A stretch of 17,063 nucleotides of DNA, taken from assembly GCA_028287885.1 (NCBI GenBank), contig JAQBOT010000392.1, positions 1-17,063 on the forward strand. The letters run 5' to 3'. The notes under the pieces were generated by a model. The model was given only the letters and a program-made list of their open reading frames with translations. It did not search any database and was not told where the DNA came from. This document shows positions 1,709-16,957 of this stretch, piece after piece. Position 1 is the stretch's first letter. Each line of letters opens with the position of its first letter. Source of the DNA: Pedobacter sp. GTDB lineage: Bacteria > Bacteroidota > Bacteroidia > Sphingobacteriales > Sphingobacteriaceae. Both the position numbers and the translations under genes were made by a program.

Positions 1709-3028
1709 CTATATGGCGCTGCTTACCGCTACAACAGGTCTCTGAATGGGTTTCATCCGCGGACTGATAACATGCATGATCAACCAGGCAAAAACATAGG
1801 CACCAGCACAAATACTAAAGATGATGTTATATCCCGCTGTAATATTACCTGCAAGAAGATATCTTTCAAGGATATATCCGATTAGTATTGGAAAGAATAT
1901 TCCGCCAACAGAGCCAGCCATACCTCCAATGCCGATGACTGAACTTATGGTGTTTTTTGGAAACATGTCTGAGGCAATTGTGTAAATATTTGCACTCCAT
2001 GCCTGATGTGCAGCGGCTGCTAAACTGATTAATGCCACAGCCTGCCATACGTTTGTGGTAAAACGCGCAGCAAAAATTGGCAATACACACAATGCAAAAA
2101 TAAACATTGCCGTTTTGCGTGCTTTAAAGACTGGCCAACCCTTTTTGATAAACCATGAAGACAAGTAACCCCCGCCGATACTGCCAATAGTAGTGGCACT
2201 ATAAACCACAACTAGTGGTAAACTAGGCTTAGTAAGGTCAATGTGAAAGGTGCTGGAAAAATAAGACGGCAGCCAGAACAGAAAAAACCACCAGATTGGA
2301 TCCGTTAGAAGTTTGCCAACCACGAAGACCCAAGTCTGGCGGTATCCAAAAAGTTTGATCCATTTGATCTTATTGGTTTTATCCGCGCTTCCGGGTTCGT
2401 TTTCAACGTCTGAGTGAATAAATGCAAACTCCTGTTCAGTCAGCTTTTTGTGCCTAGAAGGAACTTCGTAAAGTACTAGCCAGCAAACAAGCCAAACGAA
2501 TCCGATGGCACCCGTAATGATAAATGCCATCTCCCATCCATAGATGCCGAGAATCCAGGGCACCATTACCGGTGCTACTACAGCACCTATATTAGCGCCA
2601 CAGTTGAATATGCCAGTTGCAAACGCACGTTCTTTCTTGGGAAACCATTCTGTAATTGCTTTGATTGCCGCCGGAAAATTACCAGACTCCCCAAAACCGA
2701 GGCTGGCACGCACAGCCCCGAAACCAACGGTACTATTAACAACAGCGTGCAGCATTGCAGCGAAGCTCCAAATCACAATTGAAATGGAATACCCGATTTT
2801 AGAACCTATCCTGTCTATGATGTTACCAAAGCAAAGCAGCCCTACCGCATATGCTGTGGAAAAGGCAATGACAATATGACTATAGTCGATTTCCGTCCAA
2901 TGGAATTGGTGTTCAAGCGTAGGTTTAAGCAAACCGATAACCTGCCGGTCCAGGTAGTTTATCGTTGTTGCGAAAAATAGTAGTGCCACAACCACCCATC
3001 GGTAGTTCCCTTGTGTCTGTCCTTTCAT
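1709..3028 (-). CDS. MFS transporter, hexuronate/sugar-acid (ExuT-like) type
   Basis: A 439-residue inner-membrane protein with the layout of a 12-helix major facilitator, from the anion:cation symporter group that includes ExuT (hexuronate) and glucarate transporters. Evidence: NYLDRQ at 24-29 in the first helix, the loop 2-3 motif G-x3-D-R-x-G-x-K at 68-77, and GFGESGNFPAAIK at 111-123 followed by the EWFPKKERA segment typical of this group. The ATG at 3028 is the natural start, with a short polar N-terminus before helix 1. It starts 39 bases after the stop of the upstream oxidoreductase gene, so the two are probably co-transcribed. By family it should bring a sugar acid or related small organic anion into the cytoplasm; in context the cargo may be an oxidised product of the upstream enzymes. 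The exact substrate is not deducible. Confidence 0.88.
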   Translation of the reverse strand: MKGQTQGNYRWVVVALLFFATTINYLDRQVIGLLKPTLEHQFHWTEIDYSHIVIAFSTAYAVGLLCFGNIIDRIGSKIGYSISIVIWSFAAMLHAVVNSTVGFGAVRASLGFGESGNFPAAIKAITEWFPKKERAFATGIFNCGANIGAVVAPVMVPWILGIYGWEMAFIITGAIGFVWLVCWLVLYEVPSRHKKLTEQEFAFIHSDVENEPGSADKTNKIKWIKLFGYRQTWVFVVGKLLTDPIWWFFLFWLPSYFSSTFHIDLTKPSLPLVVVYSATTIGSIGGGYLSSWFIKKGWPVFKARKTAMFIFALCVLPIFAARFTTNVWQAVALISLAAAAHQAWSANIYTIASDMFPKNTISSVIGIGGMAGSVGGIFFPILIGYILERYLLAGNITAGYNIIFSICAGAYVFAWLIMHVISPRMKPIQRPVVAVSSAI

Positions 3029-3067: not shown

Positions 3068-4303
3068 TTAAACACCCATTGGAGGTTTGAGGTCATAGGC
3101 AGGAGTCCACTTTTGTATCGTGTGCCCAAATAAAGACGTATTGATCATTCCGACGGTTATTGCGGTACGAGCTCCCGTGTAAACATTTGATGAAGGCTGT
3201 TGAAGGCTACTTACACATTTGTGAAAATCCATTAACGCGTACCAGGAGCCATCTTTTAACGGCCCTGTTTCGATAGGAATTCCTCCATTCTTGTCCCAAA
3301 TGATCTTTGTAGCGCCAGTAACCCCATCAACCGTTTCATGCAGTGTTTCAAGAGCTTTCTTTTCCGGGTAGTATACTGCTTGGTCTACAAGTAAGGATAT
3401 TGAACCTTTTGATCCTTTGAACTTAAATAGATATCCATCATGGCTGTTTGCACAAGTTGCACCGAAATTTCCAATCATACCATCTTTATTATACCGGAGC
3501 ACTGCTTGTACGTTGTCATAGGTTTCGCGCCCATCTTTGTAAAAATCTATGCCCCCAGAGGCATAGACTTCGTCAACGTGGGTATCAAACGCCCAATTCA
3601 CAAAGTCGATCTGGTGAGACAACAACTCTGCTGGAAGGCCACCTGAATATTCCTTATACATCCGCCAATTGATCTGTCTCTCCAAAGATGGCTCAGGGAC
3701 CGGCCTGCGCCAAGTGCCATTCCGGTCCCAACGACAGTCTATCTGAGTTACTTTCCCCAAATAACCCTTGTTTATCATTTCTTTTACCTTATGGTAAAGC
3801 GGAGTGTAGCGGTATTGATGTCCAACTTGTAAAATCTGTCTGGGTCTAGACCTGGAGAGATTCACCAATTCAATGGCCTGCTGTATATTGTATGTCATTG
3901 TCTTTTCCAAATAAATGTGCTTTCCAGCATTTAATGCATCTTGCGCTATTTGAAAGTGCATATCTAAAGGAACAGAGATAATTACAGCATCAATATTCTT
4001 GTTGTCTAAAACCTTCTTGTAATCTTTGCTTGTAGTCGCTGCGGGCATCAGCTTTCTTGCATTTTCCAAACGAAAATCAAGGACATCACAGACCATTCCC
4101 AACTGATACTGATCTGGTAGTTGCTTCATCACGTGCATTAGACCGGTACCGCGGTCACCACATCCAATAACGCCGACATTGAGTTTCCGGCCGTCAGCAA
4201 ATGGTGTTAATGCCTTCGCGATGTTGCTTTGTAAAAGCAGTGATCCGCCTGTTATGCCAATATTTTTTATAAAATTTCTTCTAATCATTTTGTTGCTTTT
4301 CAT
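3068..4303 (-). CDS. Tat-exported Gfo/Idh/MocA oxidoreductase B
   Basis: A 411-residue NAD(P)-dependent dehydrogenase-like protein. The N-terminus carries a twin-arginine signal (RRNFIK, 8-13, then a mildly hydrophobic stretch to about residue 31), so it is probably exported folded with its cofactor. The Rossmann fold begins with VGVIGCGDRGTG (43-54). The family EKP signature appears as EKT (133-135): the catalytic-type Lys134 is kept and the Pro is replaced. The substrate-side acid/base pair is likely His230 and Asp233 in SHQIDFVNW. Members act on sugars, inositols and derivatives; here C3 oxidation or the reverse reduction of a glycoside is inferred from the DUF1080 neighbours. The ATG at 4303 is used; a second ATG at 4288 would still keep the RR motif. 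A 237-base gap separates it from the DUF1080 genes, while the transporter follows after 39 bases. Confidence 0.88.
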   Translation of the reverse strand: MKSNKMIRRNFIKNIGITGGSLLLQSNIAKALTPFADGRKLNVGVIGCGDRGTGLMHVMKQLPDQYQLGMVCDVLDFRLENARKLMPAATTSKDYKKVLDNKNIDAVIISVPLDMHFQIAQDALNAGKHIYLEKTMTYNIQQAIELVNLSRSRPRQILQVGHQYRYTPLYHKVKEMINKGYLGKVTQIDCRWDRNGTWRRPVPEPSLERQINWRMYKEYSGGLPAELLSHQIDFVNWAFDTHVDEVYASGGIDFYKDGRETYDNVQAVLRYNKDGMIGNFGATCANSHDGYLFKFKGSKGSISLLVDQAVYYPEKKALETLHETVDGVTGATKIIWDKNGGIPIETGPLKDGSWYALMDFHKCVSSLQQPSSNVYTGARTAITVGMINTSLFGHTIQKWTPAYDLKPPMGV

Positions 4304-4540
4304 TTCAGTAAGTGCCTAAATCCGGTTGATGTCGTATCTACAATGGAGCCGTCTTTTTTTTGATGGATTAAATAGAACTCCAGTTCTGGATGCCTTTTTA
4401 CAAAACGGAAAGCCTTTCAACAGTCATTTCCATAACGTAGAGCCTTGTCCGTATTCGGATAGTTTGTAACTTTTGAACGTGCTTTTCTTATAAAACATGC
4501 TTAAAAGACCGATTACCAACAAGCAAAACTTAATCATCTG
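4304..4540. other. 237-base gap inside the minus-strand gene run
   Basis: By far the longest gap between the enzyme genes. I find no convincing gene, no TAnnTTTG box on the minus strand and no terminator. It does contain a neat inverted repeat, AGAACT (4374-4379) and AGTTCT (4382-4387) separated by two bases, about 70 bases before the oxidoreductase B start, which could be a regulator site or chance. Confidence 0.4.
4374..4387. repeat. Short inverted repeat, possible operator
   Basis: AGAACT-CC-AGTTCT, perfect six-base arms around two bases. The loop is too short for a stable RNA hairpin, so if functional it would be a site for a dimeric DNA-binding protein in front of the oxidoreductase B and transporter genes. 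No second copy was noticed in the window. Confidence 0.2.
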
Positions 4541-5911
4541 TTACAGCTCCTGAATCTTTATACTTCTAAAGAATACTGTATTACCATGATCCTGTAAAAG
4601 GATATGACCTTTGGCTGCGGTACCAAAATTTTCCCAGTTCTTATACTTACTTGCTTGAACCAGTTTTAGATACTCAGGGGAACCGCGTTCAAACTCCAGC
4701 ATCTTGTAGCCGTTCAGGTAGTATTCTACCTTATTGTTTGGTAGAGACTTAATCACACCTTGATTCCAATCTCCAATTGGCTTCCGTGCTGCAGGTATCC
4801 TAGCAGAAGTAATTAGGTCATATAATGAGCCTAGCGTACGGTTTCCATCGCGGCCCAGCTTAGCGTCCGGATGGCGTTCATCATCCAACACCTGGTATTC
4901 GAGGCCTATCGCCGACGCGCCTTTTTCCTTCTCTGTCACGTAATATTTAACACCGCTATTTGCTCCTTCTGTAAGTTTAAAATCAAACTTCAATACAAAG
5001 CTGCCATACTCCTTTTCTGTTACGATATCCCCACCTACACCACCTTCAGCGCCATTTGATGCACTAATGGACAAAACACCATGATCAATTACCCAGCCCT
5101 TTGTAGGAAACTTATCCTTGTACGCACCGCGCCAACCGTTTGGGGTTTTTCCATCCCACAGCAGTTTAAAGCCATCTCGTTTTTCCTGAGCAGACACATT
5201 ATTGGGTATTGTATTAACCACGAATGTTTTATCAAGCGGCGAAGGTTTCAGGTTCTTTGTTTGAATTCGGATGTTCCTCCAATGGATCTCCTTTCCCGCA
5301 TTCTCAGGCTTATCAATTTCATGTACTTGCAAGGCTATGAAACCCCTTACAGTCTCCGCGTCTACCAAATGCGCGGTTGCTACGCCATTCACCCAAGTGC
5401 GAATGGTATTCCCGATGCATTCTATCCTGTACTTGTTCCATTCCCCGTTTTTAAAAGCGTCTTTTCCGGCTGCATTTACTTCCATTGGATAAAGCCATCC
5501 ACGCCGCGCTTCATCATATATACCGCCACTCCATTTACGATTCGAAGGGTCCACCTCAATCTGGTAGCCATGCACGCGGCCATTCTTGTAGGCTGCATCG
5601 CTTAAACTTCTGATCTGAATCCCTGAGTTCATAGAAGGGTCTACCTTAAGTTCAAGCTCGAGGATAAAATCGCCATAATCCTTGCTGGTTGCCAGAAAGG
5701 AGTTAGGTTCGTTCGGAACAGTTGTACCCACAATCTCCAGACCCCTAACCTCGTATTTCGCCTTACCATTGAGTTGTTTCCACCCGGAAAGATCCTTTCC
5801 ATTGAATAAAGGTTGCCAGTTGCCCTGTGTCCCACTTTGAGCGGATGATACCTGGCTTAAAAAAACACCGAAGAGTGCCACTAAAGCTATTCTGCAATTC
5901 ATATACGTCAT
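4541..5911 (-). CDS. Two-domain DUF1080 (3-keto-disaccharide hydrolase) protein C
   Basis: A 456-residue exported protein with a Sec signal peptide (hydrophobic 8-21, likely cut after VSSA, before Gln25) and two tandem concanavalin-like DUF1080 (PF06439) domains: N-domain about 31-218, linker about 219-246, C-domain about 247-456. The domains differ in type. The C-domain has NSGVKYY (318-324), GLEYQVLD (336-343), HPDAK (347-351), SLYDL (362-366) and LQDHG (439-443), like protein A. The N-domain instead has NSGIQIRS (95-102), GYQIEVDPSN (115-124), GGIYDEARRGWLY (129-141) and an ALQVH ending (193-197). Characterised DUF1080 relatives cleave or hydrate 3-keto-glycosides; which step each domain performs is unknown. 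It starts 8 bases after the DUF1080 B stop. An in-frame ATG at 5902 is an equally plausible start that keeps the signal peptide. Confidence 0.9.
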   Translation of the reverse strand: MTYMNCRIALVALFGVFLSQVSSAQSGTQGNWQPLFNGKDLSGWKQLNGKAKYEVRGLEIVGTTVPNEPNSFLATSKDYGDFILELELKVDPSMNSGIQIRSLSDAAYKNGRVHGYQIEVDPSNRKWSGGIYDEARRGWLYPMEVNAAGKDAFKNGEWNKYRIECIGNTIRTWVNGVATAHLVDAETVRGFIALQVHEIDKPENAGKEIHWRNIRIQTKNLKPSPLDKTFVVNTIPNNVSAQEKRDGFKLLWDGKTPNGWRGAYKDKFPTKGWVIDHGVLSISASNGAEGGVGGDIVTEKEYGSFVLKFDFKLTEGANSGVKYYVTEKEKGASAIGLEYQVLDDERHPDAKLGRDGNRTLGSLYDLITSARIPAARKPIGDWNQGVIKSLPNNKVEYYLNGYKMLEFERGSPEYLKLVQASKYKNWENFGTAAKGHILLQDHGNTVFFRSIKIQEL

Positions 5912-5919
5912 TTTGTCGG

Positions 5920-6645
5920 TTAATTTGGGTGATTAGTTAATTGGCGGATCTTTATGTTTTTAAAAGCTACGGGAGAACCTTCATTTTGGAACAGCAGGTA
6001 GCCCGCCTTGGCTTTTCCAAAATTCCTGAGGTTCTTGTATTTACTGTCAGCGATCAGCGTCGCAAATGCAGCTGAATTCCGGTTGTATTCAACAACTTTC
6101 TTTTCATTCAACCAATGTTCGATATGATTCTGGTTAACGATAATCTTAGCCGTATTCCACTTTCCCAATGGGGAGGTCGTCTTGTTTGTATCGGCAGGGA
6201 TAAGATCATATAGCGAAGCCAAACTGCGTAACGCTCCACGTTCCGGATATTTGAAGTTAACCTCGTCAACAATCTGATACTCTAGCCCCAAGTAAGCCCC
6301 TTTTTGTTCAGGGAAATTGTTTGAGACCAGATACTTTACACCGCTGTTCGTCTTCTCCGCCATCTTAAATTCGAAAACCAGTTCAAAGTTATCATACTGA
6401 TCACCGGATAACAGATCGAGTTGCCTTGGTGAAGTAGACGGAATTGCTGTTAACTCACCATCTTTGATCAACCAACCGTCCCCCGCCAGTTTCTGCCAGC
6501 CCTTGAAAGTTTTTCCATCAAACAGGACTGTCCAGCCAGCCTTGGTCACTTTATTTTCAGTCGCTTTTTGCGTTTGGGAAAAAGCTGCGCAAGCAAATAC
6601 AAGCTGTAATCCAACAGCAAAAAAGGAAAATTTAATGCTCTTCAT
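5920..6645 (-). CDS. DUF1080 (3-keto-disaccharide hydrolase-like) protein B, divergent
   Basis: A 241-residue exported single-domain DUF1080 protein. I chose the ATG at 6645 because it opens a normal signal peptide (MKSIKFSFF to about AFSQ, 24) and lies 4 bases after the upstream stop; the frame stays open to 6741 but that longer N-terminus overlaps the upstream gene and buries the signal sequence. Cys19 (VFAC) leaves lipid anchoring possible but the lipobox is poor. The domain (about 36-236) keeps NSGVKY (100-105), GLEYQIVD (120-127), SLYDL (144-148) and GKWN (161-164). Two stretches well kept in proteins A and C are changed: HPDAK-x-GR is lost (FKYPERG, 131-137) and LQDHG is FQNEG (219-223), so the His is missing. 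Altered specificity or a non-catalytic binding role is possible. Confidence 0.87.
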   Translation of the reverse strand: MKSIKFSFFAVGLQLVFACAAFSQTQKATENKVTKAGWTVLFDGKTFKGWQKLAGDGWLIKDGELTAIPSTSPRQLDLLSGDQYDNFELVFEFKMAEKTNSGVKYLVSNNFPEQKGAYLGLEYQIVDEVNFKYPERGALRSLASLYDLIPADTNKTTSPLGKWNTAKIIVNQNHIEHWLNEKKVVEYNRNSAAFATLIADSKYKNLRNFGKAKAGYLLFQNEGSPVAFKNIKIRQLTNHPN

Positions 6646-6649
6646 CGGA

Positions 6650-8017
6650 TTAAATCTTAGGTTCCCAACCTTTTTCATAGCTTCTGCCCCACAACTTTTC
6701 TGCTTCTTTATCACCAATGATATGTCCGTTTTTAGGATCAAGTTTCAAATCACGACCTACCCTCCAGGAAATATTCCCCAATTGCATGGCCATTACGCTC
6801 TTATAACCCAGTTCAACATCACAATTTGGACGGCGGTTATTCTTAATTGCATCCAGGAAATCGGCCATGTGCAAACTATCCATACCCAGACTTGGACTTG
6901 CCGTATTTCTTCCAGCCAAAGCTTCTCCGTTAGCTTCTGACTTAACGTCCTGAAGTAATTTTCCGTCCAGGTCATATATTTTATAGGCATCCTCTCCAGT
7001 ATCCAGGCTGCCTTTTTCGCCATAAAAAATTATCCCTCTTTCCTGGCCTTCCACCTTTCTTCCATTACAACTCCGGTTCTCCCACAACAAAGAAACACGC
7101 CCCGGATATTCGATTGTTACCAACTGTGTATCCGGCGTTTGCCAGTCGTCCTGAAATTGATACCTTCCACCAATGGAGCTCACGCGAATCGGAAAATCTA
7201 CACCAAGTCCCCAACGCGCAACATCTACCTCATGTGTGCCGTTATTTAAGGCTTCACCTGTGCCATAGTTCCAGAACCAATGCCAGTTGTAATGGATCAA
7301 ACCGTCTTTATATTCTGCACGTGGAGCAGGTCCCTGCCAAAGGTCATAATCCAGCCAATCGGGAACTGCACCAGGCTTCAGGAAAGTTTCTTTACGGGTA
7401 TTTGTATACCAGGTTTTGGCCATATAGACCCGCCCGATAATGCCCTCGTGCAAAAGCTGAATTCCTTTAGTTAGTATCGGAGCTGAACGCCGCTGTGCAC
7501 CCATTTGCACAACCCTGTTGTATTTTCTTGCCGCTGCGACGGCCATTTCTCCCTCCCGGGGATTGTGACTCAAAGGTTTTTCCACATAAACATGTTTTCC
7601 TGCCTGACAGGCCATGATCGTCAAAGGCGCATGCCAGTGATCCGGCGTAGCCGTATATATCGCATCTACAGATTTATCTTCTAAAACCCTCCGCAGGTCA
7701 GCTTCAGATTTTGGAACTGCAGTCTGACCTCCTTTTGCAATGGTTTGCATGGCTTTCGGAATTGCCCGTTTATCTACGTCACAAACCGTAACGATCTGGG
7801 CATTCTTCAGGCGTGCAATCGTGCCGCTCATACTGTTCCCACGGCTATTTACACCAATGACGGCCATATTGACCCGCTCGTTTGATCCCATAATATTCCG
7901 GTAACTTTTGGCGCTGGTCCCTATACCTGCCCCGCCAAATGCATTGTTTCCAATGGTTAAAGCTGCAGTACCAATCCCTAATTTTTTAATAAAATCTCTT
8001 CTCGAATTATTGCTCAT
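6650..8017 (-). CDS. Tat-exported Gfo/Idh/MocA oxidoreductase A
   Basis: A 455-residue NAD(P)-dependent oxidoreductase. Start placed at the ATG at 8017 because it puts the twin-arginine motif SRRDFIKK (5-12) near the N-terminus and leaves a 25-base gap to the previous gene; a longer frame to 8089 would overlap that gene. Rossmann nucleotide site at 52-64 (AVIGVNSRGNSMS, with G-x-N in place of the usual G-x-G). Catalytic EKP at 146-148 (Lys147) and a likely acid/base pair His262 and Asp265 in NNGTHEVDVARW. It resembles the large class of secreted Bacteroidota and Planctomycetota Gfo/Idh/MocA proteins with an extended C-terminal domain. Being sandwiched between two DUF1080 genes suggests it supplies or consumes 3-keto sugars in the periplasm; the reaction direction cannot be read from sequence. 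Confidence 0.9.
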   Translation of the reverse strand: MSNNSRRDFIKKLGIGTAALTIGNNAFGGAGIGTSAKSYRNIMGSNERVNMAVIGVNSRGNSMSGTIARLKNAQIVTVCDVDKRAIPKAMQTIAKGGQTAVPKSEADLRRVLEDKSVDAIYTATPDHWHAPLTIMACQAGKHVYVEKPLSHNPREGEMAVAAARKYNRVVQMGAQRRSAPILTKGIQLLHEGIIGRVYMAKTWYTNTRKETFLKPGAVPDWLDYDLWQGPAPRAEYKDGLIHYNWHWFWNYGTGEALNNGTHEVDVARWGLGVDFPIRVSSIGGRYQFQDDWQTPDTQLVTIEYPGRVSLLWENRSCNGRKVEGQERGIIFYGEKGSLDTGEDAYKIYDLDGKLLQDVKSEANGEALAGRNTASPSLGMDSLHMADFLDAIKNNRRPNCDVELGYKSVMAMQLGNISWRVGRDLKLDPKNGHIIGDKEAEKLWGRSYEKGWEPKI

Positions 8018-8042
8018 GACTAAATTTTTGATGTGTTTATAG

Positions 8043-8765
8043 CTATAATATTTTGACCTTAATATTTTTAAAGGCGACCTGATCTCCATGGTCCTGAAGT
8101 AAAATGTGGCCTTTTTTAACGGCTCCGAATGGAGGCTGGGTGTCCTTGAACTTACTTAGCTTCCATGCTTCCTTATAGGCCTCGCTATCACGGTCAAACG
8201 AGAGCACCTTTACCCCGTTCAGGTAGTGGATAACTTTAGATCCCTTTACAACAATTCTGGCGTGATTCCATTCTCCTACCCGATTTGGAACTTGTTTTTC
8301 CAAGGGCAGCAAATCGTAAAGCGTGGCTTGAAGGCGGTTACCATTCCGGCCATTCTTAGCGTCTGGATGCTTATCATTATCCAGTATCTGGTATTCAAGG
8401 CCAAGCCATCCACCCTGATCATACTTGGTGAACAAGTATTTAATACCGCTATTTCCACCTTCGCTTAGCTTGAAGTCAACGGAGAGATCAAAATCTCCGT
8501 ATTCATCTTTCGTAATGATGTCACTTCCGTGTTCCTCCCCGACTTTTTTGTTCATCAATATTCCATCTTGGATCACCCAGCCAGTTGCCGGGGGATCATT
8601 TTTTCCAACCGCAGTCCAACCCTCCAGGTTTTTGCCATTAAACAGGAGCTTCCAGCCTTGTCTCTCATCCTGCTTAGAGAGCATATTGGGTTTTTCTTGC
8701 GCAGATAGTGTATTTACGGACAAGAATGCGATGATAAAGCAGGCAATTATTTTTGAATACATCAT
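8043..8765 (-). CDS. DUF1080 (3-keto-disaccharide hydrolase) protein A
   Basis: A 240-residue exported protein: signal peptide 1-22 (cut after SAQ or just before the Gln), then one DUF1080/PF06439 domain (about 37-240). Landmarks are LFNGKNLEGW (41-50), NSGIKYLF (105-112), GLEYQILD (122-129), HPDAK-x-GR-x-GNR (133-144), LYDL (149-152), GEWN (164-167), HYLNG (180-184) and LLQDHG (222-227), all of which recur in the C-domain of protein C. The family adopts a concanavalin-like fold and includes enzymes acting on 3-keto-disaccharides or 3-keto-glycosides. It is the first enzyme gene after susD (44 bases), so it may act first or most abundantly. Two adjacent ATGs (8765, 8762) are equivalent starts. 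Confidence 0.9.
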   Translation of the reverse strand: MMYSKIIACFIIAFLSVNTLSAQEKPNMLSKQDERQGWKLLFNGKNLEGWTAVGKNDPPATGWVIQDGILMNKKVGEEHGSDIITKDEYGDFDLSVDFKLSEGGNSGIKYLFTKYDQGGWLGLEYQILDNDKHPDAKNGRNGNRLQATLYDLLPLEKQVPNRVGEWNHARIVVKGSKVIHYLNGVKVLSFDRDSEAYKEAWKLSKFKDTQPPFGAVKKGHILLQDHGDQVAFKNIKVKIL

Positions 8766-8809
8766 GTCTTATTTAGTGTAATTAATGTGATAATTAGTGA
8801 TTCTAAGTA

Positions 8810-10381
8810 TTAGATTTGGGTATAACCCTTATTTTGTATGATTTTCAGAGGATTAGACTGCATCACCGTCATTGGTATCGGATAAGCCAATGCGCTTTCG
8901 CTCCAGGCGAAGGTGTTATAACCGTCCAATCGCTGTTCTTCAATCATAGCTGCCTGTGCGCGGCCCGTACGCACCAGGTCAAACCAGCGGTGATTTTCAA
9001 ATGCAAGTTCTACCCGTCTTTCCTTCTCTATGGCGAGTAACAGCGTCTCATCATTAGGGAATTCGGCCAAAATAAAGTCATGCAGTAAATTAGCAGACGG
9101 TGGAATTGCTGGGTCACCTGGCGTATTTCTTGCACGTTGGCGAATCTTATTCATGTAAAGTATAGCGGCATTTTTATCGCCCGCTCCACGAACTTGTGCT
9201 TCAGCATACATTAGGTATACATCTGCCAGGCGCAGTTCAATCCAATTGTTCCCATTATCCGAACCGCTTGAGGCAATGTCATAATATTTTACGACATACC
9301 TTTCTGCCTGGAAAGCACCTGTCTTCGCATTTACCCAACCATCCCGCATAGAAACGAATTTCCTTGGATCACCAACCTCATAAGCGCTGGACATGCTTCC
9401 GGTTGGAGAGTTTTCGCCTCCTTTATCACCCACCAAAACAACTTCTTTATCGGAGAACCTTGGCGCAAAGTTGTTGTTCCAGGGACTTCCTGTTGCGGCA
9501 TTCGGAGAACCTTTTAAATATTGAATTTCAAAAAGTGATTCAGAACTATTCTTTTTAGAAACATCAAACAGGTCTTTGTAGCTTGGAACCAGGGAATAAG
9601 TGGAATTGCTGATCACTTCAAGCAATTTCTGACTCGCTAAGCCGTAGTATTCGGCGCCCTTATTCAAGGGATAACCTGCCATTGTCAAATACACCTTTCC
9701 GAGTAATGCCGATGCGCCACCCTTAGTTACACGACCGCGATCAATACCACCATATGTTTGAGGCAGATTGGCTTCTGCAAACTTCAAATCTTCGACGATG
9801 AAGTCATACATGTCCTGTAGCGGTGCACGGCCAAGTTCATAGGCTTCCGCCTGACTGAGTTCCTTATCTACCTTAATGGTACCAAGCATTTGCCCGTTTA
9901 TAGCCTCCCCGCCGAAAGCTCGGTTCAGCCAGAAATAAACTAAAGCCCTTAGGAAACGTGCTTCAGCTACATACTGGGTTCTTAACTTTTCATCGGTAAA
10001 CGTCGCAGCATCCGCACGTCCAATTACCAGATTGCATCGCAGTATGGTTTTATAACTATTGTCCCATAAGTCGGTAACAAAGTTATTTTCCGGCAACAGC
10101 GGAGATGCAAATTCGTCTATCCCCTTTTCATTTGCCGGATTGCCGGAAAGCCAGGAATACGTCGAATTGTCTGATCGGATTTCTCCAATTCGTACATAGG
10201 TAGCGTTGTACAAATCACGAAGATTTCCATAGGCAGAAAGTGTCGCCTGATTGATGTCCTGCTGATTTTTGTAGAAGGTGTTGGAGTTCAAATTTGAAGG
10301 CGGAGCCAGGTCTATGAAGTCCTTTTTGCAGGAAACGAGCTGAATGACAACCGCCAGGAACAATAAACTAATCTTTTTCAT
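8810..10381 (-). CDS. SusD/RagB-type surface glycan-binding lipoprotein
   Basis: A 523-residue lipoprotein. The signal peptide ends in a lipobox LVSC with Cys18 as the lipidated residue; KKD after it could serve surface export, as in other Bacteroidota lipoproteins. The body has the SusD layout: TPR-like helical N-terminal half (alanine- and leucine-rich segments such as EARFLRALVYFWLNRAFGGE) and the C-terminal hallmark EKERRVELAFENHRWFDLVR at 452-471, with the usual YPIP segment near the end. It forms the lid of the SusC pore and binds the incoming ligand at the outer surface. It begins 27 bases after the susC stop, the standard pairing. The ligand cannot be deduced from the sequence. Confidence 0.95.
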   Translation of the reverse strand: MKKISLLFLAVVIQLVSCKKDFIDLAPPSNLNSNTFYKNQQDINQATLSAYGNLRDLYNATYVRIGEIRSDNSTYSWLSGNPANEKGIDEFASPLLPENNFVTDLWDNSYKTILRCNLVIGRADAATFTDEKLRTQYVAEARFLRALVYFWLNRAFGGEAINGQMLGTIKVDKELSQAEAYELGRAPLQDMYDFIVEDLKFAEANLPQTYGGIDRGRVTKGGASALLGKVYLTMAGYPLNKGAEYYGLASQKLLEVISNSTYSLVPSYKDLFDVSKKNSSESLFEIQYLKGSPNAATGSPWNNNFAPRFSDKEVVLVGDKGGENSPTGSMSSAYEVGDPRKFVSMRDGWVNAKTGAFQAERYVVKYYDIASSGSDNGNNWIELRLADVYLMYAEAQVRGAGDKNAAILYMNKIRQRARNTPGDPAIPPSANLLHDFILAEFPNDETLLLAIEKERRVELAFENHRWFDLVRTGRAQAAMIEEQRLDGYNTFAWSESALAYPIPMTVMQSNPLKIIQNKGYTQI

Positions 10382-10408
10382 ATTATTAAAATATAAGATC
10401 TAATGAAT

Positions 10409-13400
10409 TTAAAATGTGAAGTTTGCGCCAAGGATGAAGGTTCGCGCGGTTGGATATCCAAGGTAATCGCCTCCCTTGGTCAATCCGGTGCCCTCACTGC
10501 TCGTCTCTGGATCATAACCAGAGTATTTGGTGATAGTAAACAGGTTACTTCCTGTCACATAAACGCGTAAGCCCTTTAGCTTCAACTTTTGTGTAAAGCT
10601 TTTATTGAAATCATAAGCAAAGTTCAGATTTCTAAGTCTGATATAGGATGCATCCTGAATCCATGCCGATGAAGGATCCCGCTGCCATCCGGATGGTGTC
10701 CTTGTTGCCCTGAAGTGAATTCCGTCTCCTGGTTCTTCAACGGAGCGCCAGCGATCCACCTGCTCAATCATACCATTACGATCCCCGTGGTAAATACCAA
10801 CCATCCTTTTGTAAAAGCTAAATAATTCTGCTCCGTATGATGCGGTAAACTGAACGCCCAAAGAAAAGTTTTTGTAGGAGAAGTTGTTGGTCAGGCCTGC
10901 AGTGAAATCGGGATTGTTATTTCCTAAAATCGTTTTATCATTCTGATTAAGAATTCCATCATTATTTATATCAGCATACCTTCCGTCACCCACTTTATCT
11001 GCGCCAAGGTGTGGATAGCGATCCAACTCCTCCTGACTTTGGAATACGCCTTCATACCTGTAGCCATAGAAACTCGCAATCGGAGCACCTATAGTTGTAA
11101 TAAAAGCATTATTGGCATTCGGAGCACTGCCATAAATCGGACGTCTGTCTGGGCCAACTTCAAGAACTTTATTCTTATTAAACGAAATGTTGAAGTTTGT
11201 GCTCCATTTAAAGGTATTGATCAGGTTTCTGGTCGTAACCAAGAACTCCATTCCCCGGTTTTGCACCTTTCCAATGTTCTGGATTTGTGAGGAGTAACCG
11301 GTAATCACAGGCACAGGAACGTTCAATAACAAGTCTATCGACTGGCTGTCATAGAAATCTCCTTCTACCCGGATGCGGTCTTTCATTAACCCGAATTCAA
11401 ATCCCAGGTTATATTGTCTTGTCTTCTCCCAACCAAGATCATCATTTGACATGGTGTTTGGATTGGATGTATTTTGAAGTGCATTTCCTGTCGGATAAAA
11501 TCCAGAAGAAAGAAGTCCGATCGCAGAATAATCACCAATTCTGTTGTTCCCAACTATACCGTAGCCGGCACGAATTTTAAGATCACTGATAGCAGTGACA
11601 TCTTTCATGAATTTTTCCTGAGAAACTCTCCAGCCCAGAGACAGTGAAGGGAACGTGCCCCACTTTTTATTCATACCAAAACGCGAGGAACCGTCACCCC
11701 GAAAAGTAGCAGTGATCAGGTAACGGTCATCATATGAATAATTAACACGGCCTAAGTAAGAGATCATTGAATAGTTCGACTCGTCGCTAGTAAGGGCATA
11801 CATTGTACCTGCATTCAATGTGTGGATCGCGTCGTTAGCAAAACCACGGGCTTCCCCAAACATGTTGTTATAGGTATGCTTTTGAGTTGTGTAACCAACC
11901 AGGCCTGATAAGGCGTGCTTACTTCCAAAGGTATGTGCATAGTTCAGCGTATTTTCAATTACCCAGTCGTAATCAGTACCCCGTTGATTGACTGCCCTGG
12001 CGGGACGTGGTCCCTTTGAAGCATCAAAATCTATATAGGAGGCTTCAAAGATCTTTTGTTGATTGTCCTGAATTCCACCATTCACATTTACCCTGTATTT
12101 CAGATCCTTTATAATCTCCCACTCCGCAAACACGGTTCCCAACCAGCCATAACGTTTACGGGTATTTAAAACCTGTTCTGCAATCCCGATTGGATTGGAA
12201 ACATCCCCTGGAAAGATTTCCGGATTTCTAAGCATAGACCCATAAGTACCATCGTCATTTTTTCCCGGAAAGATCGGCGGCAGCTGCAAGGCGAACATGA
12301 CAGGAGAATATTTTCCATTTTCCTGCTCTCTTCCATTAGCCGAATAGGCCATTAAATTCATTCCAAGGGAAATACTTTTACTGACCTTGGAATTAACGTT
12401 GGTACGGAAATTAAAGCGGTCATAGTTTGTTCCCAATACAATTCCCTCCTGTTTTGCATAACTTCCTGCAAAAGTATATTGGGTGTTTTCAGAACCTCCG
12501 GAAACAGACAGCTCATTTTGCTGGGTCAGGGCTCTTCTGTATAATAAATCCTGCCAATCATTATCGGGCAAGGTTGCCACGGAAGCCGGATCACGGAAAT
12601 TGTATTTGTAACCGTTGGTACCATCAGGTATATTGTATTGGGTGCTCGCGCCCGAATACAAGTTCCGTCTGGTGTTCGGATCATTAATCGTATGTGGTGT
12701 CTGGTTTGGATCTGAGGTCAACACCTGAGCATCAAGCCAGGCTTGGTTTCTACCGTCCATAAACCATTGTACATACTGGTCCCTATTCATCATATCTATC
12801 TTTTTGCCGAGTTCCTGAAAACCTACAAATGAACTCACGTTGATCGTTGGCGGTCCAACTTTACCTTTTTTCGTTGTTACGATAACCACACCGTTGGCAC
12901 CTCGGGATCCATAAATAGCTGTCGAAGAAGCATCCTTTAAAACCTGGATGCTTTCAATATCAGCCGTATTCAAGAGGCGAAAGGCGTTACCTTCCATCGG
13001 ATACCCGTCCACGACATATAAAGGATCATTGGACTGCGTTATTGACCCAACGCCCCTTACGCGTATCGAAAGCCCCTCACCTCCAGGGGCACCACCAGTT
13101 TGCTGAACCTGAACACCTGCCATTTGGCCGGCTATGGCTTCGCCGAAGTTCAATGATGGACGCTCCTTGATGCTTTCCGCAGAAACAGAAGATACGGCAG
13201 TTGTAATATTTGACTTCTTCTGAGTTCCATAACCGATAACAACCACCTCATCCAGGGCAGATGATTCTTCCAGGAGGGTCACATTTACCGTCTGGTTGTC
13301 TCCTACTGATATTTCTTTACTCGCAAATCCGATCATGCTAAACACCAATGTCGCATTGGCAGGCACGGAGATGCTATACACGCCATTGGCATTACTGATT

Positions 13401-13936
13401 GTGGCTATGCTTGTTCCTTTTACCTTGACACTTACACTGGGAATTGGAGCATTGCCTTTATCCACAACTTTGCCCTTAATAACTTTATCCTGTTGTTTTT
13501 GAATTTGATCAACTGCGCTGGCCCCATTCGAGCTTTTCTTGATCAGTATGTCTTTATTGATGATCTGGAAAGAATACGGCAGGTTTTTCAAACATTCGCG
13601 CATTGTCTCCGCAACTGTGGAGTTTTTCAGGTCAATTGAAACGACCTTACTGGCAAGATCATTGCTATTATACAATAATGCATAGCCGGTTTGGCGTTTG
13701 ATCGACTTGAACACCTGTTCCATCGTCAAATTGTTTGCGTACAATGTTACCTTTTGGGTCTGTGCCTTTGCAGATCCCTCGGCAACCACAAACAATATAA
13801 AGAAAAAGGTAAGCTGGAGACTTTTCTTTATCTCCCATTTACTCAGAAAGGAGAATTTTTGTGAGACCAAATGTAGAGTTCGCAAAAATTCAGATAACAG
13901 CATAGAGAATGCCATTGAATAGCGGTTCACGTTCAT
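10409..13936 (-). CDS. SusC/RagA-type TonB-dependent transducer with STN domain
   Basis: A 1175-residue outer-membrane TonB-dependent receptor. Order: an unusually long charged N-region (1-38), signal sequence core (about 39-57, cut near AKA/Q59), STN domain (about 61-133) that contacts an anti-sigma factor in the periplasm, CarboxypepD_reg-like beta-sandwich (about 151-222), TonB-box-like DEVVVIGYG (229-237), plug (about 240-357, with IRVRG, YVVDG and ANGVVIVTTKKG), then a barrel to the C-terminal phenylalanine (LGANFTF). A D-x-N-x-D-G calcium-loop-like motif lies near residue 987, as in many SusC proteins. With the following susD it should import oligosaccharides or glycosides using TonB energy. 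The STN domain plus fecR and ECF sigma genes just upstream make it a signal transducer too. In-frame ATGs at 13915 and 13903 are alternative starts that shorten the N-region. Confidence 0.95.
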   Translation of the reverse strand: MNVNRYSMAFSMLLSEFLRTLHLVSQKFSFLSKWEIKKSLQLTFFFILFVVAEGSAKAQTQKVTLYANNLTMEQVFKSIKRQTGYALLYNSNDLASKVVSIDLKNSTVAETMRECLKNLPYSFQIINKDILIKKSSNGASAVDQIQKQQDKVIKGKVVDKGNAPIPSVSVKVKGTSIATISNANGVYSISVPANATLVFSMIGFASKEISVGDNQTVNVTLLEESSALDEVVVIGYGTQKKSNITTAVSSVSAESIKERPSLNFGEAIAGQMAGVQVQQTGGAPGGEGLSIRVRGVGSITQSNDPLYVVDGYPMEGNAFRLLNTADIESIQVLKDASSTAIYGSRGANGVVIVTTKKGKVGPPTINVSSFVGFQELGKKIDMMNRDQYVQWFMDGRNQAWLDAQVLTSDPNQTPHTINDPNTRRNLYSGASTQYNIPDGTNGYKYNFRDPASVATLPDNDWQDLLYRRALTQQNELSVSGGSENTQYTFAGSYAKQEGIVLGTNYDRFNFRTNVNSKVSKSISLGMNLMAYSANGREQENGKYSPVMFALQLPPIFPGKNDDGTYGSMLRNPEIFPGDVSNPIGIAEQVLNTRKRYGWLGTVFAEWEIIKDLKYRVNVNGGIQDNQQKIFEASYIDFDASKGPRPARAVNQRGTDYDWVIENTLNYAHTFGSKHALSGLVGYTTQKHTYNNMFGEARGFANDAIHTLNAGTMYALTSDESNYSMISYLGRVNYSYDDRYLITATFRGDGSSRFGMNKKWGTFPSLSLGWRVSQEKFMKDVTAISDLKIRAGYGIVGNNRIGDYSAIGLLSSGFYPTGNALQNTSNPNTMSNDDLGWEKTRQYNLGFEFGLMKDRIRVEGDFYDSQSIDLLLNVPVPVITGYSSQIQNIGKVQNRGMEFLVTTRNLINTFKWSTNFNISFNKNKVLEVGPDRRPIYGSAPNANNAFITTIGAPIASFYGYRYEGVFQSQEELDRYPHLGADKVGDGRYADINNDGILNQNDKTILGNNNPDFTAGLTNNFSYKNFSLGVQFTASYGAELFSFYKRMVGIYHGDRNGMIEQVDRWRSVEEPGDGIHFRATRTPSGWQRDPSSAWIQDASYIRLRNLNFAYDFNKSFTQKLKLKGLRVYVTGSNLFTITKYSGYDPETSSEGTGLTKGGDYLGYPTARTFILGANFTF

Positions 13937-14040
13937 TAAATTAAGGTTAGTATTTGGTTAGACTTTGATTTTTTTGGATGTATTGGGCCCGTTCGTATTT
14001 CCTGAGCCTATTCCACCTGTTTTTTAGTTTTCATATTCTC
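13937..14040. other. Gap between fecR and susC genes
   Basis: This 104-base gap is where an ECF-dependent promoter for the susC operon would be expected. I see no TAnnTTTG box on the minus strand, which fits use of a specialised sigma factor, but I cannot define an ECF motif from a single site. No terminator hairpin is visible after fecR. Confidence 0.3.
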
Positions 14041-15210
14041 TTATTTATGTTGTCTATTTTTTGCAGTTATGATCACTTGCTTTACCTCAGCCTTATTTAA
14101 AACTCTATAGTTTAAATCAAAGAAGGTCAAAAATTCCAATGCTTTTTCAAGAGAATCCTCACGGTGAACCTCGCCCCATAACTTGATATTTGGTATTTTT
14201 GGATCGATTTTAAAATCCACATTATACCAGCGTGCCAGTTGCCGGCTAACATTGGCAAGGTCTGAGTTTCGGAATTGAAACAACCCGGTTCGCCAGGCAA
14301 CTTCATTATCTACATCAACCTTTGAAACTTCGATCTTCGCATGTTCATTAAGCGTCGATTGTTCACCGGGCCTAAGTATGATCGTATGTTTCAGTTTATT
14401 TTCTAAAACTTTTACTTTTCCTTCAAGTAAGGTCGTTTTTGTTGTCGGTTCATCCGCATAACTGGAAACATTGAAATGAGTGCCCAAGACCTGTACCTGT
14501 TGGCGGCGTGTTAACACCTCAAATGGGTGAGACTTATTCTTCGCTACCTCGAAATAGGCTTCACCATCGAGCTCAATATGCCTGGTTTTGCCGGAAAATG
14601 TAGTTGGAAATTTTAAAGAGGAGACAGCATTGATCCAAATGCGGGTACCATCAGTCAATATCACCTGGAATTGCGCAGCCCTTGAAGTCGTTAATACATT
14701 CAGTATGCGGGAAGATTCGTTGGCCGTGTTAGGTGATAAAGTTGAAAATTCAATTACATCTTTCTCAAGCTTGCTGATTTGAACCCCTTGCTGCTGTGCA
14801 AGTATTCCGATGGGTGCTTCAGCCAATGATACTTTACGTCCGTCAGCCAGGGTCAGGAATGATTTACCAAGTTGAGTGGTAGGTAGGGCGGCGTGCCCGG
14901 TTGCGGACAGGCGCGGCCCAGCCTCCAACTGCTTCTGTGAACAATAATAATATAGCCCGATTGATAAAGAAAGGATAATAGAGATGGACGCAGCAATGGG
15001 AAGCGAAAAATTCAAAGATCTCTTTTTCCGGCTTCCAGGTAACCTATTATAAACAGCTTCAAGATCTTGGCTTACCTGATCCTCAGAAACGTTTGTTGCT
15101 GCCTTTTTGATCTGTTCATCGTACCATGCGTGCAGCAATGACAGTTCTTCTTCGGAACACTGCTTATTTTTTAATTTATCAAGAAGTTGCCTTAATTTCT
15201 CCGCTTCCAT
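14041..15210 (-). CDS. FecR-like anti-sigma factor
   Basis: A 389-residue single-pass inner-membrane regulator. The start is the ATG at 15210; the frame can be read from a TTG at 15216, but ATG is likelier. Counted from that ATG: cytoplasmic N-terminal helical region (about 1-60) that should hold the sigma factor, with KQCSEEELSLLHAWYDE (16-32) typical of this group; basic GSRKKR then a membrane segment (about 69-89); periplasmic FecR domain (about 170-268, with ILTDGTRIWINAVSSLKFP and LDGEAYFEV); and a C-terminal DUF4974-like domain (about 310-383) that meets the receptor STN domain. It lies 75 bases after the sigma gene and before susC, the standard cell-surface-signalling order. It would keep the sigma factor inactive until the loaded receptor signals. 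Confidence 0.93.
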   Translation of the reverse strand: MEAEKLRQLLDKLKNKQCSEEELSLLHAWYDEQIKKAATNVSEDQVSQDLEAVYNRLPGSRKKRSLNFSLPIAASISIILSLSIGLYYYCSQKQLEAGPRLSATGHAALPTTQLGKSFLTLADGRKVSLAEAPIGILAQQQGVQISKLEKDVIEFSTLSPNTANESSRILNVLTTSRAAQFQVILTDGTRIWINAVSSLKFPTTFSGKTRHIELDGEAYFEVAKNKSHPFEVLTRRQQVQVLGTHFNVSSYADEPTTKTTLLEGKVKVLENKLKHTIILRPGEQSTLNEHAKIEVSKVDVDNEVAWRTGLFQFRNSDLANVSRQLARWYNVDFKIDPKIPNIKLWGEVHREDSLEKALEFLTFFDLNYRVLNKAEVKQVIITAKNRQHK

Positions 15211-15285
15211 AAACAAGGTTCTGAACTGTATAGTCCGTTAACCTGGCGACAGGGCGTAGAAGAAAAAGAGAAATGTTTAAAATAA

Positions 15286-15876
15286 TTAGTTGGCAACTTG
15301 GGCGAGTACCACTAAGAACAGAGAAACGTAGGTACCCAGTTTTACCCGTAGGATTTTCAAGGCATTGTTTACTTGTTTTTTCACGGTGCTCTCAGAGATA
15401 TGCAGCGCTTGTCCAATTTCCTTGTGACTTAAGTACGACTTCCTGCTTAATGTTAGCACTTCACGCATTTTTGATGGTAATTCATCAATCTCCTGATCTA
15501 TGATTATTTGAAGCTGCTTTTCCCGAATCAAATGATCGGAACTGGTAAAGCTTTCCTGAGCCGGTAACTCAAATAAACTGAAATATTTACACTCGACCTG
15601 TTGATGGCTAAGCGCCTTAAACACGGAATTGCGCGCTGCAACATATAAGTAGCCCGCAAGATTGCTGTTAATGACTATATCCGACCGTTTGTTCCACAAA
15701 CTGGTAAAGACCTCTTGAACAATGTCCATGACTTCAGATCTATCATTTAACAGTTTGTAAGTATTTCTGTAAACCACTGGAGAATGACGCGAATAAATTT
15801 CGGTAAAAGCGGCATGATCATCCTTTCTGAGTAGATCAACGAGTTCAAAATCCGAAAACAACTTATACCCTGACAT
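15286..15876 (-). CDS. ECF sigma factor, FecI-like Bacteroidota type
   Basis: A 196-residue sigma-70 family factor of the extracytoplasmic function class with only regions 2 and 4. Region 2 spans about 22-90, including MDIVQEVFTSLW (50-61), which recognises the -10 DNA and core polymerase. Region 4 spans about 130-178: LPSKMREVLTLSRKSYLSHKEIG begins it and the helix-turn-helix continues through HISESTVKKQVNNALK (159-174), which binds the -35 element. The protein ends in a hydrophobic tail (GTYVSLFLVVLAQVA, 181-195), longer and more apolar than region 4 needs. It is paired with the FecR-like protein and should direct transcription of the susC operon and perhaps its own gene. Confidence 0.94.
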   Translation of the reverse strand: MSGYKLFSDFELVDLLRKDDHAAFTEIYSRHSPVVYRNTYKLLNDRSEVMDIVQEVFTSLWNKRSDIVINSNLAGYLYVAARNSVFKALSHQQVECKYFSLFELPAQESFTSSDHLIREKQLQIIIDQEIDELPSKMREVLTLSRKSYLSHKEIGQALHISESTVKKQVNNALKILRVKLGTYVSLFLVVLAQVAN

Positions 15877-16311: not shown

Positions 16312-16725
16312 TTATGAAATGCTATGTGAATCAGGTGATGATTGTGGTTGACCCGCAACCGCTTCTTGCATCATTGAATATCTAACGGTTTGAGCATGAA
16401 TGCTACCATCGCGAATTACGAAAGTGTCAACGCCATCATTGATATTGATTGAAGGCGATTTAAGTGTCCACTCCAGAAAAACAATGTCGTCTTCAATATT
16501 CACTTGTTTAAGATCAAACGCTGACCCCTGCTCCAGGCTCTGAAAGATCTGACTATAAGCATCTGATATCGCATCAACCCCAATCCGCTTTTCGCCGGTA
16601 GACGTAATAAAGATGGATTTCTCGTTGAAATCTGTTGCAAGGTCTTTTAGATCCTTCCTTAAGAATGCATCCATATGATGATTGAATACATCTTCTGTGC
16701 TTCTGTTGATTCCGTTCATTTCCAT
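16312..16725 (-). CDS. SnoaL/NTF2-like protein of unknown function
   Basis: A 137-residue protein when started at the ATG at 16725 (MEMNGINR); an ATG at 16719 would serve equally. A longer frame reaches 16869, but the extra 48 residues look like translated intergenic DNA. The pattern fits the SnoaL-like/nuclear transport factor 2 fold (SgcJ/EcaC-like group): an opening helix pair (VFNHHMDAFLRKDLKDLATDF), an early strand (SIFITSTGEKRIG), a helix (AISDAYSQIFQSL), then strands (IVFLEWTL, VDTFVIRDGSIHAQTVRYSM). Such proteins form a cone-shaped pocket and include isomerases, cyclases and many of unknown role; no catalytic residues are assigned. No signal peptide is seen. It has its own terminator and is probably not part of the glycoside locus. 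Confidence 0.75.
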   Translation of the reverse strand: MEMNGINRSTEDVFNHHMDAFLRKDLKDLATDFNEKSIFITSTGEKRIGVDAISDAYSQIFQSLEQGSAFDLKQVNIEDDIVFLEWTLKSPSININDGVDTFVIRDGSIHAQTVRYSMMQEAVAGQPQSSPDSHSIS

Positions 16726-16957
16726 TGCTAATTGTTTAAGGTGAAATAAATCAATAATGGTTAGGCTTGGCCAATGTGAAGTTACTGTTAAGAAGAACGT
16801 CAAAAAATAGCCAGATGTAGTCATTATTTTATGCACAGCAAAGCAAGAACAAAAAGCATCTGCTTCCATCTCCGGGTGTAGGAATGTTTGTTTTGAAGAA
16901 GATGACTAATAAGTCGTAAATTAAGTAGAATTAGAGCCATTAAAATGACACGAGATC
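16726..16957. other. Divergent promoter region between SnoaL-like and VOC genes
   Basis: Both flanking genes are transcribed outwards from here. On the plus strand AATGTTTG (16883-16890) is a one-mismatch -7 box that would give a leader of about 60 bases for the VOC gene, without a clear -33 partner. For the leftward gene I find no exact -7 box. Confidence 0.3.

Follow-up and report, generated by a model that had tools for sequence, protein, structure and literature searches.

The stretch analysed here (the window) is the whole of Pedobacter contig JAQBOT010000392.1 (C254; 17,063 bases), part of a 3.4 Mb genome in 498 contigs that is 92% complete. Its reverse strand carries genes for an extracytoplasmic function (ECF) sigma factor, a FecR anti-sigma factor, an STN-bearing SusC-type TonB-dependent transporter and a SusD lipoprotein, followed by a DUF1080 protein (DUFa), a Gfo/Idh/MocA oxidoreductase (GfoA) and a second, remodelled DUF1080 protein (DUFb), and these seven genes form a cassette that recurs in other genomes. 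Behind them lie a two-domain DUF1080 protein (bis-DUF1080), a second Gfo protein (GfoB), a major facilitator superfamily (MFS) transporter and a flavin adenine dinucleotide (FAD) oxidase (Table 1). Pfam and NCBIfam searches bore out a first-pass annotation that had named the genes between positions 3,068 and 15,876, including three DUF1080 (PF06439) proteins with four domains; the MFS gene that it had placed in the same span is present but lies outside it, and the FAD oxidase, the next gene, had gone unmentioned. Both Gfo proteins had been called exported by the twin-arginine translocation (Tat) pathway: GfoA scores 24.5 bits on the NCBIfam Tat model (cut-off 16.7), and for GfoB a Tat motif, IRRNFIKN, was read by eye. 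The closest named kin of GfoA are in Pedobacter panaciterrae, P. foliorum and P. cryoconitis (86%, 84% and 82% identity).

Table 1. Features of the window, with the matches or motifs on which each name is based.
Feature	Positions	Strand	Basis or remark
ECF sigma factor (Bacteroidetes family 1)	15286..15876	-	TIGR02985 128.3 bits (cut-off 126.4); Pfam sigma-70 r2/r4
FecR anti-sigma factor	14041..15216	-	PF04773, PF16344
STN-SusC TonB-dependent transporter	10409..13936	-	PF07660 (STN), PF13715 (carboxypeptidase-like), PF07715 (plug)
SusD lipoprotein	8810..10381	-	PF07980, PF14322; lipobox by eye
DUFa, predicted 3-keto-glycoside lyase/hydratase	8043..8765	-	PF06439 165.8 bits; HPDAK loop, QDHG; signal peptide by eye
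GfoA, Tat-exported Gfo/Idh/MocA oxidoreductase, predicted glycoside 3-dehydrogenase	6650..8017	-	
DUFb, remodelled PF06439 paralog	5920..6645	-	143.2 bits; NFKYPERG loop, QNEG (Glu for conserved His)
bis-DUF1080, N-class + C-class domain	4541..5911	-	PF06439 twice, 290.7 bits; 4jqt 509 bits
GfoB, Tat-like Gfo/Idh/MocA, predicted second dehydrogenase or reductase	3068..4303	-	PF01408, PF22725; context
MFS transporter, sugar-acid (galactonate/hexuronate) type	1709..3028	-	TIGR00893 254.2 bits; DgoT 6e9n 155.9 bits; relatives' context
FAD alditol/xylitol-oxidase-like enzyme, possibly the unit's last gene	276..1547	-	PF01565, PF04030; 8ot8 430.8 bits; 2vfr 364.6 bits
SnoaL-like protein gene	16312..16869		upstream of ECF, 435 bases off; left out of the unit

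The start of GfoA was picked via its Tat motif MSNNSRRDFIKK (the longest reading frame begins at 8089) and that of DUFb was set by eye, which together remove apparent gene overlaps. Intergenic gaps from the ECF gene to the bis-DUF1080 gene measure 4 to 104 bases; those between bis-DUF1080 and GfoB (237 bases) and between MFS and FAD oxidase (161 bases) are such that the final genes may be on separate transcripts. No match to the Bacteroidota-type promoter TTTG-N17-21-TANNTTTG was found in the window (0.66 expected), and an Rfam search gave no match at gathering score. Sigma-70-like sites numbered 41, against 35.0 (standard deviation 6.1) in shuffled sequence, and terminator-like sites 23, against 15.5 (4.8), counts that settle no transcript ends.

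An STN-bearing SusC, SusD, FecR and ECF sigma factor stand together in one unit, the arrangement of a SusC/SusD polysaccharide utilization locus (PUL) under ECF/FecR control, and a classical carbohydrate-active enzyme is missing from it in Pfam scans of the window, at whose edge the contig ends. As the first-pass annotation had stated, Pfam detected no glycoside hydrolase (GH), polysaccharide lyase, carbohydrate esterase, other esterase or sulfatase family among the 20 open reading frames of at least 80 amino acids on this contig (12 on the minus strand, 8 on the plus strand), except PF06439, a family that Pfam itself names 3-keto-disaccharide hydrolase.

A conserved seven-gene cassette

Searching 400 genomes of the order at E <= 1e-62, we detected a relative of DUFb in 10, and in nine of these it takes seventh place in ECF-FecR-SusC-SusD-DUFa-GfoA-DUFb. 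The carriers are the window, three further Pedobacter genomes (L161, L162, L165), two of the genus that includes Olivibacter (L196, L199) and three of the genus that includes Parapedobacter (L197, L198, L201); the tenth genome (L200) has DUFb by itself. P. cryoconitis and P. panaciterrae are among the species with all seven genes. Across the cassettes, identity to the window's proteins is 65-80% for SusC, 70-81% for SusD and 75-86% for GfoA; the ECF protein is 29-32% identical in L197, L198 and L201 and 48-64% in the other five, and its gene is inverted in L198 and L201. In a class-wide set of 395 genomes, the window's own genome alone gave a DUFb match. That eight other genomes keep these seven genes in an identical order excludes chance.

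The flanks of the other eight cassettes (2.5-6 kb each side) contain no orthologs of bis-DUF1080, GfoB, the MFS transporter or the oxidase, though L198 has one additional Gfo gene. The conserved unit is therefore the seven genes, and of the nine cassettes only the window's is extended by the four genes behind them. The annotation had read the whole set as one 3-keto cleavage unit; homology supports its pairing of sensing and uptake with 3-keto-glycoside enzymes that lack a classical hydrolase, and the conserved part of the set is the smaller one.

A hydrolase just beyond the contig could be the true catalytic partner, leaving the Gfo and DUF1080 genes accessory. The window being a whole contig, its flanks are unreadable in its own genome, and relatives of GfoA elsewhere do adjoin hydrolases or lyases. 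However, no hydrolase occurs among the seven adjacent genes of the eight other cassettes, and 10 flanking proteins scanned with Pfam at four of them included no GH and one sulfatase (beside L198), while two more, beside L015 and L022, belong to radical SAM and purine synthesis. We regard a hidden hydrolase as quite improbable.

Outside the cassette's clade, the order SusC-SusD-DUF1080-GfoA also occurs in Adhaeribacter (L017), Dyadobacter (L023), Tannerella (L038) and others. Among 20 loci studied closely (80 fetched), 10 have a SusC/SusD-like pair upstream of DUF1080-GfoA, seven directly and three with one or two genes between. Some of these 20 carry hydrolases or lyases, namely GH115 with a sulfatase (L024), GH29 (L026), GH2 (L036) and a polysaccharide lyase (L023), so the absence of a hydrolase is a trait of the cassette and not of the enzyme family. 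PUL prediction relies on hydrolases, lyases and sulfatases, and would pass over a conserved SusCD cassette that has no hydrolase, or assign it no substrate. The literature searched, judged by titles and abstract openings, described neither this cassette nor a DUF1080 protein without the conserved His; within it the exact cassette appears to be new, and the pathway itself is known.

Divergent DUF1080 domains and the DUFb clade

All three DUF1080 proteins pass the PF06439 gathering cut-off of 26.8 bits, DUFb with the lowest score. DUFa matches the solved chain 4jqt at 222 bits, and bis-DUF1080 matches it over almost its full length. We aligned 84 PF06439 domains from the fetched loci, a set in which four or more rows duplicate the window's own domains, and found the His of a QxHG motif kept in 73 of the 82 rows that have a residue there. 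DUFa and the C-domain of bis-DUF1080 are of the canonical type of solved chains 8rr2 and 3osd, with the QxHG His and an H(P/A)DAK loop. The N-domain of bis-DUF1080 retains the His and has a different loop; such N-class domains account for 18 of the 84 rows (one a duplicate), every one from a two-domain protein. DUFb departs at both sites. Judged by these motifs, the four domains of the locus are not equivalent, since one has lost the conserved His. The nine rows without it are five DUFb proteins (one duplicate), three distant proteins with Glu and L058, whose alignment is doubtful. Because those three also carry Glu at the His position, this residue is not confined to DUFb; the three DUF1080 proteins, from L012 (contig C273 of the window's own genome), L064 and L091, read QSE or QAE where others have QxH.

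A search of 5.8 billion proteins returned 6,914 homologs of DUFb, and we examined the best 120 of them. QNEG and a Y(P/A)xR loop occur in every protein from rank 1, which is the window's DUFb itself, to rank 96, and ranks 97 to 120 have QGH (12), QDH (10), QEH (1) or QDE (1). In a tree of 112 PF06439 domains, all 21 QNEG members fall on a single branch (support 100/100), adjoined (98/83) by the QDE member, P0097, which also bears the Y(P/A)xR pattern. P0097 (QDEG) and P0098 (QGHG) both come from 17,317-base contigs, perhaps one contig, and could be a second pair of His-less and His-bearing proteins. The QNEG branch appears to be new within the literature searched. UniProt-derived names of DUFb homologs begin '3-keto-alpha-glucoside-1,2-lyase/', with hydratase as the second part, and the family name 3-keto-disaccharide hydrolase is applied automatically to a whole clade that lacks a highly conserved motif His.

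The lost His may bear on function. A His-to-Asn variant (H275) of a Bacteroides thetaiotaomicron lyase is described as deficient in the hydration of 2-hydroxy-3-keto-glucal and was used for elimination. Kastner et al. (Angew. Chem. 2024) is the source cited for this variant. A B. theta lyase of the DUF1080 type has both elimination and hydration activity (PMC13273386). Counted along chain 8rr2, the QDHG His is residue 250, with one other His nearby (241). If 8rr2 is taken to be the lyase of the H275 variant, H275 likely corresponds to the QDHG His, because a signal-peptide offset of 25 turns 250 into 275. On this reading, DUFb would be a natural counterpart of the variant, with elimination predicted and hydration absent or altered, and it may serve only as a lyase next to a DUFa that has both activities. 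We consider it possible, if doubtful, that DUFb founds a new functional branch of 3-keto-glycoside lyases: an enzyme with a natural His-to-Glu change that carries out elimination and no hydration, or has a new second step, beside a bifunctional DUF1080 protein in a hydrolase-free cassette, with the reactive 3-keto-glycal passed between paralogs and the system here extended to glucuronides or other sugar-acid glycosides. The function of DUFb is directly testable via the published B. theta mutant, as a natural experiment on the split between elimination and hydration.

GfoA within and beyond the cassette

When the modelled structure of GfoA was compared with solved ones, the best match was the glucoside 3-dehydrogenase AL3, one entry of which has trehalose bound. 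A different view would make GfoA or GfoB a glycoside hydrolase dependent on nicotinamide adenine dinucleotide (NAD), from a Gfo-fold family (GH109 or the sulfoquinovosidase type), and the locus an ordinary hydrolase PUL in disguise. GGHGG, which we take to be the GH109 acid-base loop, is found in neither protein, and 2ixa and 6t2b match an N-terminal stretch only (at 37.1 bits and 25.3 bits, where AL3 reaches 91.4). GH109 membership was rejected on the missing motif and these weak scores, and the view as a whole is highly improbable.

We also sought GfoA at E <= 1e-150 in 145 genomes of the genus, where it occurs in 24 (own genome included), and fetched 12 of the loci. Seven (L160, L163, L164, L166-L169) have GfoA without DUF1080 or cassette, and two (L170, L171) have FecR-SusC-SusD-GfoA and then two genes. 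In L171 (12245-14340), the two encode a TIM barrel and a member of the glucose/sorbosone-dehydrogenase family (PF07995), with no DUF1080. A tblastn search for traces of DUF1080 found none in L160, L163, L164, L166, L167, L169, L170 or L171; in L168 it found a 33-residue piece (6259-6357) directly upstream of GfoA, which likely points to the loss of a DUF1080 partner there. One site on the purL side holds GfoA without the cassette in L160, L163 and L164 and the seven-gene cassette in L161 and L162. Given these solitary loci, also at the cassette's own purL-side site and free of DUF1080 remnants, GfoA seems to be useful without the cassette.

Solitary GfoA genes would suit a system of uptake and modification, with Gfo enzymes that convert one monosaccharide or polyol (inositol, sugar acids) into another and with DUF1080 proteins that mainly bind carbohydrate. 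The top NCBIfam score of GfoB is for inositol 2-dehydrogenase, DUFb lacks the conserved His, and an alditol-oxidase-like gene lies downstream. That GfoB score, however, is 104.5 bits, far under the cut-off of 355, the full canonical motif set is kept in DUFa and the bis-DUF1080 C-domain, and GfoA has a glucoside 3-dehydrogenase as its nearest solved relative. Modification alone is thus unlikely, and we favor glycoside cleavage.

Predicted route, substrate hints and known systems

An exported Gfo dehydrogenase stands beside exported DUF1080 proteins (signal peptides read by eye) in a cassette present in nine genomes. The observation itself stands, and the pathway was already known; what we say of catalysis comes from homology. 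The locus probably serves the inducible uptake and cleavage of a glycoside by the known route of oxidation, elimination, hydration and reduction. Substrate-loaded STN-SusC/SusD would signal via FecR to the ECF sigma factor and carry the glycoside to the periplasm, where GfoA, exported folded with its nucleotide, would oxidize the sugar at C3. DUFb, with its Glu for His and its other loop, may share in elimination, acting on a different leaving group or anomer, or may have an altered second step. GfoA or GfoB would reduce the 3-keto-sugar back, which would close the NAD cycle in the periplasm, and the sugar-acid-type MFS transporter would import a released sugar acid. The first-pass annotation had called the route complete, which is plausible: a separate hydratase is possibly unneeded, because a B. 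theta lyase is described as both eliminating and hydrating.

Several observations weigh against this reading. AL3 leads other sugar dehydrogenases by just 1.2 Z in the structure comparison, and the curated cut-offs for BT_2158_fam (NF058561, glycoside 3-dehydrogenase; 750 bits) and BT_2159_fam (NF058563, disaccharide 3-dehydrogenase; 650 bits) are missed by GfoA (148.9 and 25.1 bits) and GfoB (85.2 and 54.7 bits), scores so far below that orthology to BT2158 or BT2159 was rejected. Nine of the 12 fetched GfoA loci have no adjoining DUF1080 gene and three hold the cassette. The MFS transporter is just 60-63% identical to its closest kin and lies outside the conserved cassette, and three of its six fetched kin (L172-L174) belong to another cluster than one of hexuronate genes, which in L173 includes a gene of the N-acetylmuramic-acid-6-phosphate-etherase family (365 bits, cut-off 168), a second MFS, GH28, GH20 and PhyH. 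In earlier work, a Pedobacter with ten DUF1080 genes showed no lactose phenotype for any of them (PMC9007349), and growth on raffinose-family sugars was normal after deletion of either BT2157 or BT2158 alone (PMC11501099).

The extension genes offer hints of origin and substrate. Of 300 genomes of the order, 102 have GfoB-like genes (E <= 1e-100), and 15 of 20 chosen loci, mostly the best matches, have one with bis-DUF1080 and a second Gfo of 450 to 494 residues. This three-gene module (L142-L152, L155-L158) is widespread in the family, frequently with DUF6807 or ApbE neighbors. In the window's own genome, the short contig C87 has a bis-DUF1080-Gfo pair with no GfoB downstream and its upstream side cut off, and the sole GfoB at this threshold is the window's. 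Since GfoB-like genes usually sit with bis-DUF1080 elsewhere, part of the module appears to have joined the cassette.

The MFS transporter scores below the cut-off of 395 bits for the D-galactonate transporter family TIGR00893, and its nearest solved structure is DgoT, whose residues D46, R47, R126 and E133, which we presume to be important, are matched. Relatives (E <= 1e-110) occur in 34 of 119 genus genomes, and we fetched six of the seven closest. L175-L177 share a cluster, which in L175 includes glucuronate isomerase, mannonate dehydratase and D-mannonate oxidoreductase, all over cut-off. Acidic sugars would fit both clusters of MFS kin, with a hexuronate as one candidate. The window's own genome has UxaC beside KduI-, SDR- and PfkB-family genes; it also has UxuA, and the window's MFS is its sole one at this threshold. 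From these clusters and from UxaC and UxuA, we infer that the product is perhaps a sugar acid, released perhaps from glucuronides. Nothing in the other 118 genus genomes matches the alditol-oxidase-like gene at E <= 1e-110, and its own genome has a second copy (contig C453), so a glycosyl-polyol substrate is an alternative, and the two genes were perhaps acquired.

PF01261 (TIM barrel) occurs at nine places in the window's own genome, eight above cut-off. A specific TIM-barrel hydratase partner was considered and rejected, as the barrels next to GfoA relatives in L017, L027 and L171 match the own-genome contigs compared (which include seven of the nine places) at only 27-33% identity. Contig C206 of this genome (L133) holds a second 3-keto-type locus, with a weak pyranose-oxidase/GMC-like gene, a Gfo, an IolE-like gene, a BT_2158-like Gfo (487 bits, cut-off 750), DUF1080, a nucleoside-type symporter and a TIM barrel.

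The 3-keto-glycoside pathway of B. thetaiotaomicron BT2156-BT2160 was reportedly described by Nasseri et al. (Nature 2024; cited in PMC12550630). Like the window, that system has a periplasmic Gfo dehydrogenase with a DUF1080 protein and no classical hydrolase; unlike it, the window joins ECF/FecR and STN-SusC/SusD to the enzymes, has two dissimilar single-domain DUF1080 paralogs and no TIM-barrel gene, and its Gfo proteins fall outside the BT_2158 and BT_2159 families by cut-off. Passages of earlier papers describe BT2158 as a periplasmic glycoside 3-dehydrogenase (PMC11300592), link BT2156-BT2159 to glucosinolate (review PMC12385236), tie DUF1080 proteins to the use of 3-ketotrehalose and lactose (PMC9007349), lay out the four-step 3-keto logic (PMC10628242) and show putative active-site residues of the family in a figure (PMC9765024). 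The Alistipes enzyme AL3 (PDB 8tdf, 8tdh) is 27% identical to GfoA. The entry 4jqt, a 'putative glycosyl hydrolase', has the two-domain architecture of bis-DUF1080, which in the window stands in a context of Gfo genes. DgoT, the closest solved relative of the MFS transporter, shares four residues with it, and the transporter's substrate is putative given its score under the TIGR00893 cut-off. Agrobacterium AtOGE and Caulobacter LacABC with DUF1080 follow the same chemistry as proposed here, to oxidize, cleave and reduce, though AtOGE is described as a Mn-dependent enzyme that carries a sugar phosphate isomerase/epimerase annotation and is no DUF1080 protein, and the Caulobacter dehydrogenase as the membrane-bound LacABC (PMC10628242, PMC9007349).

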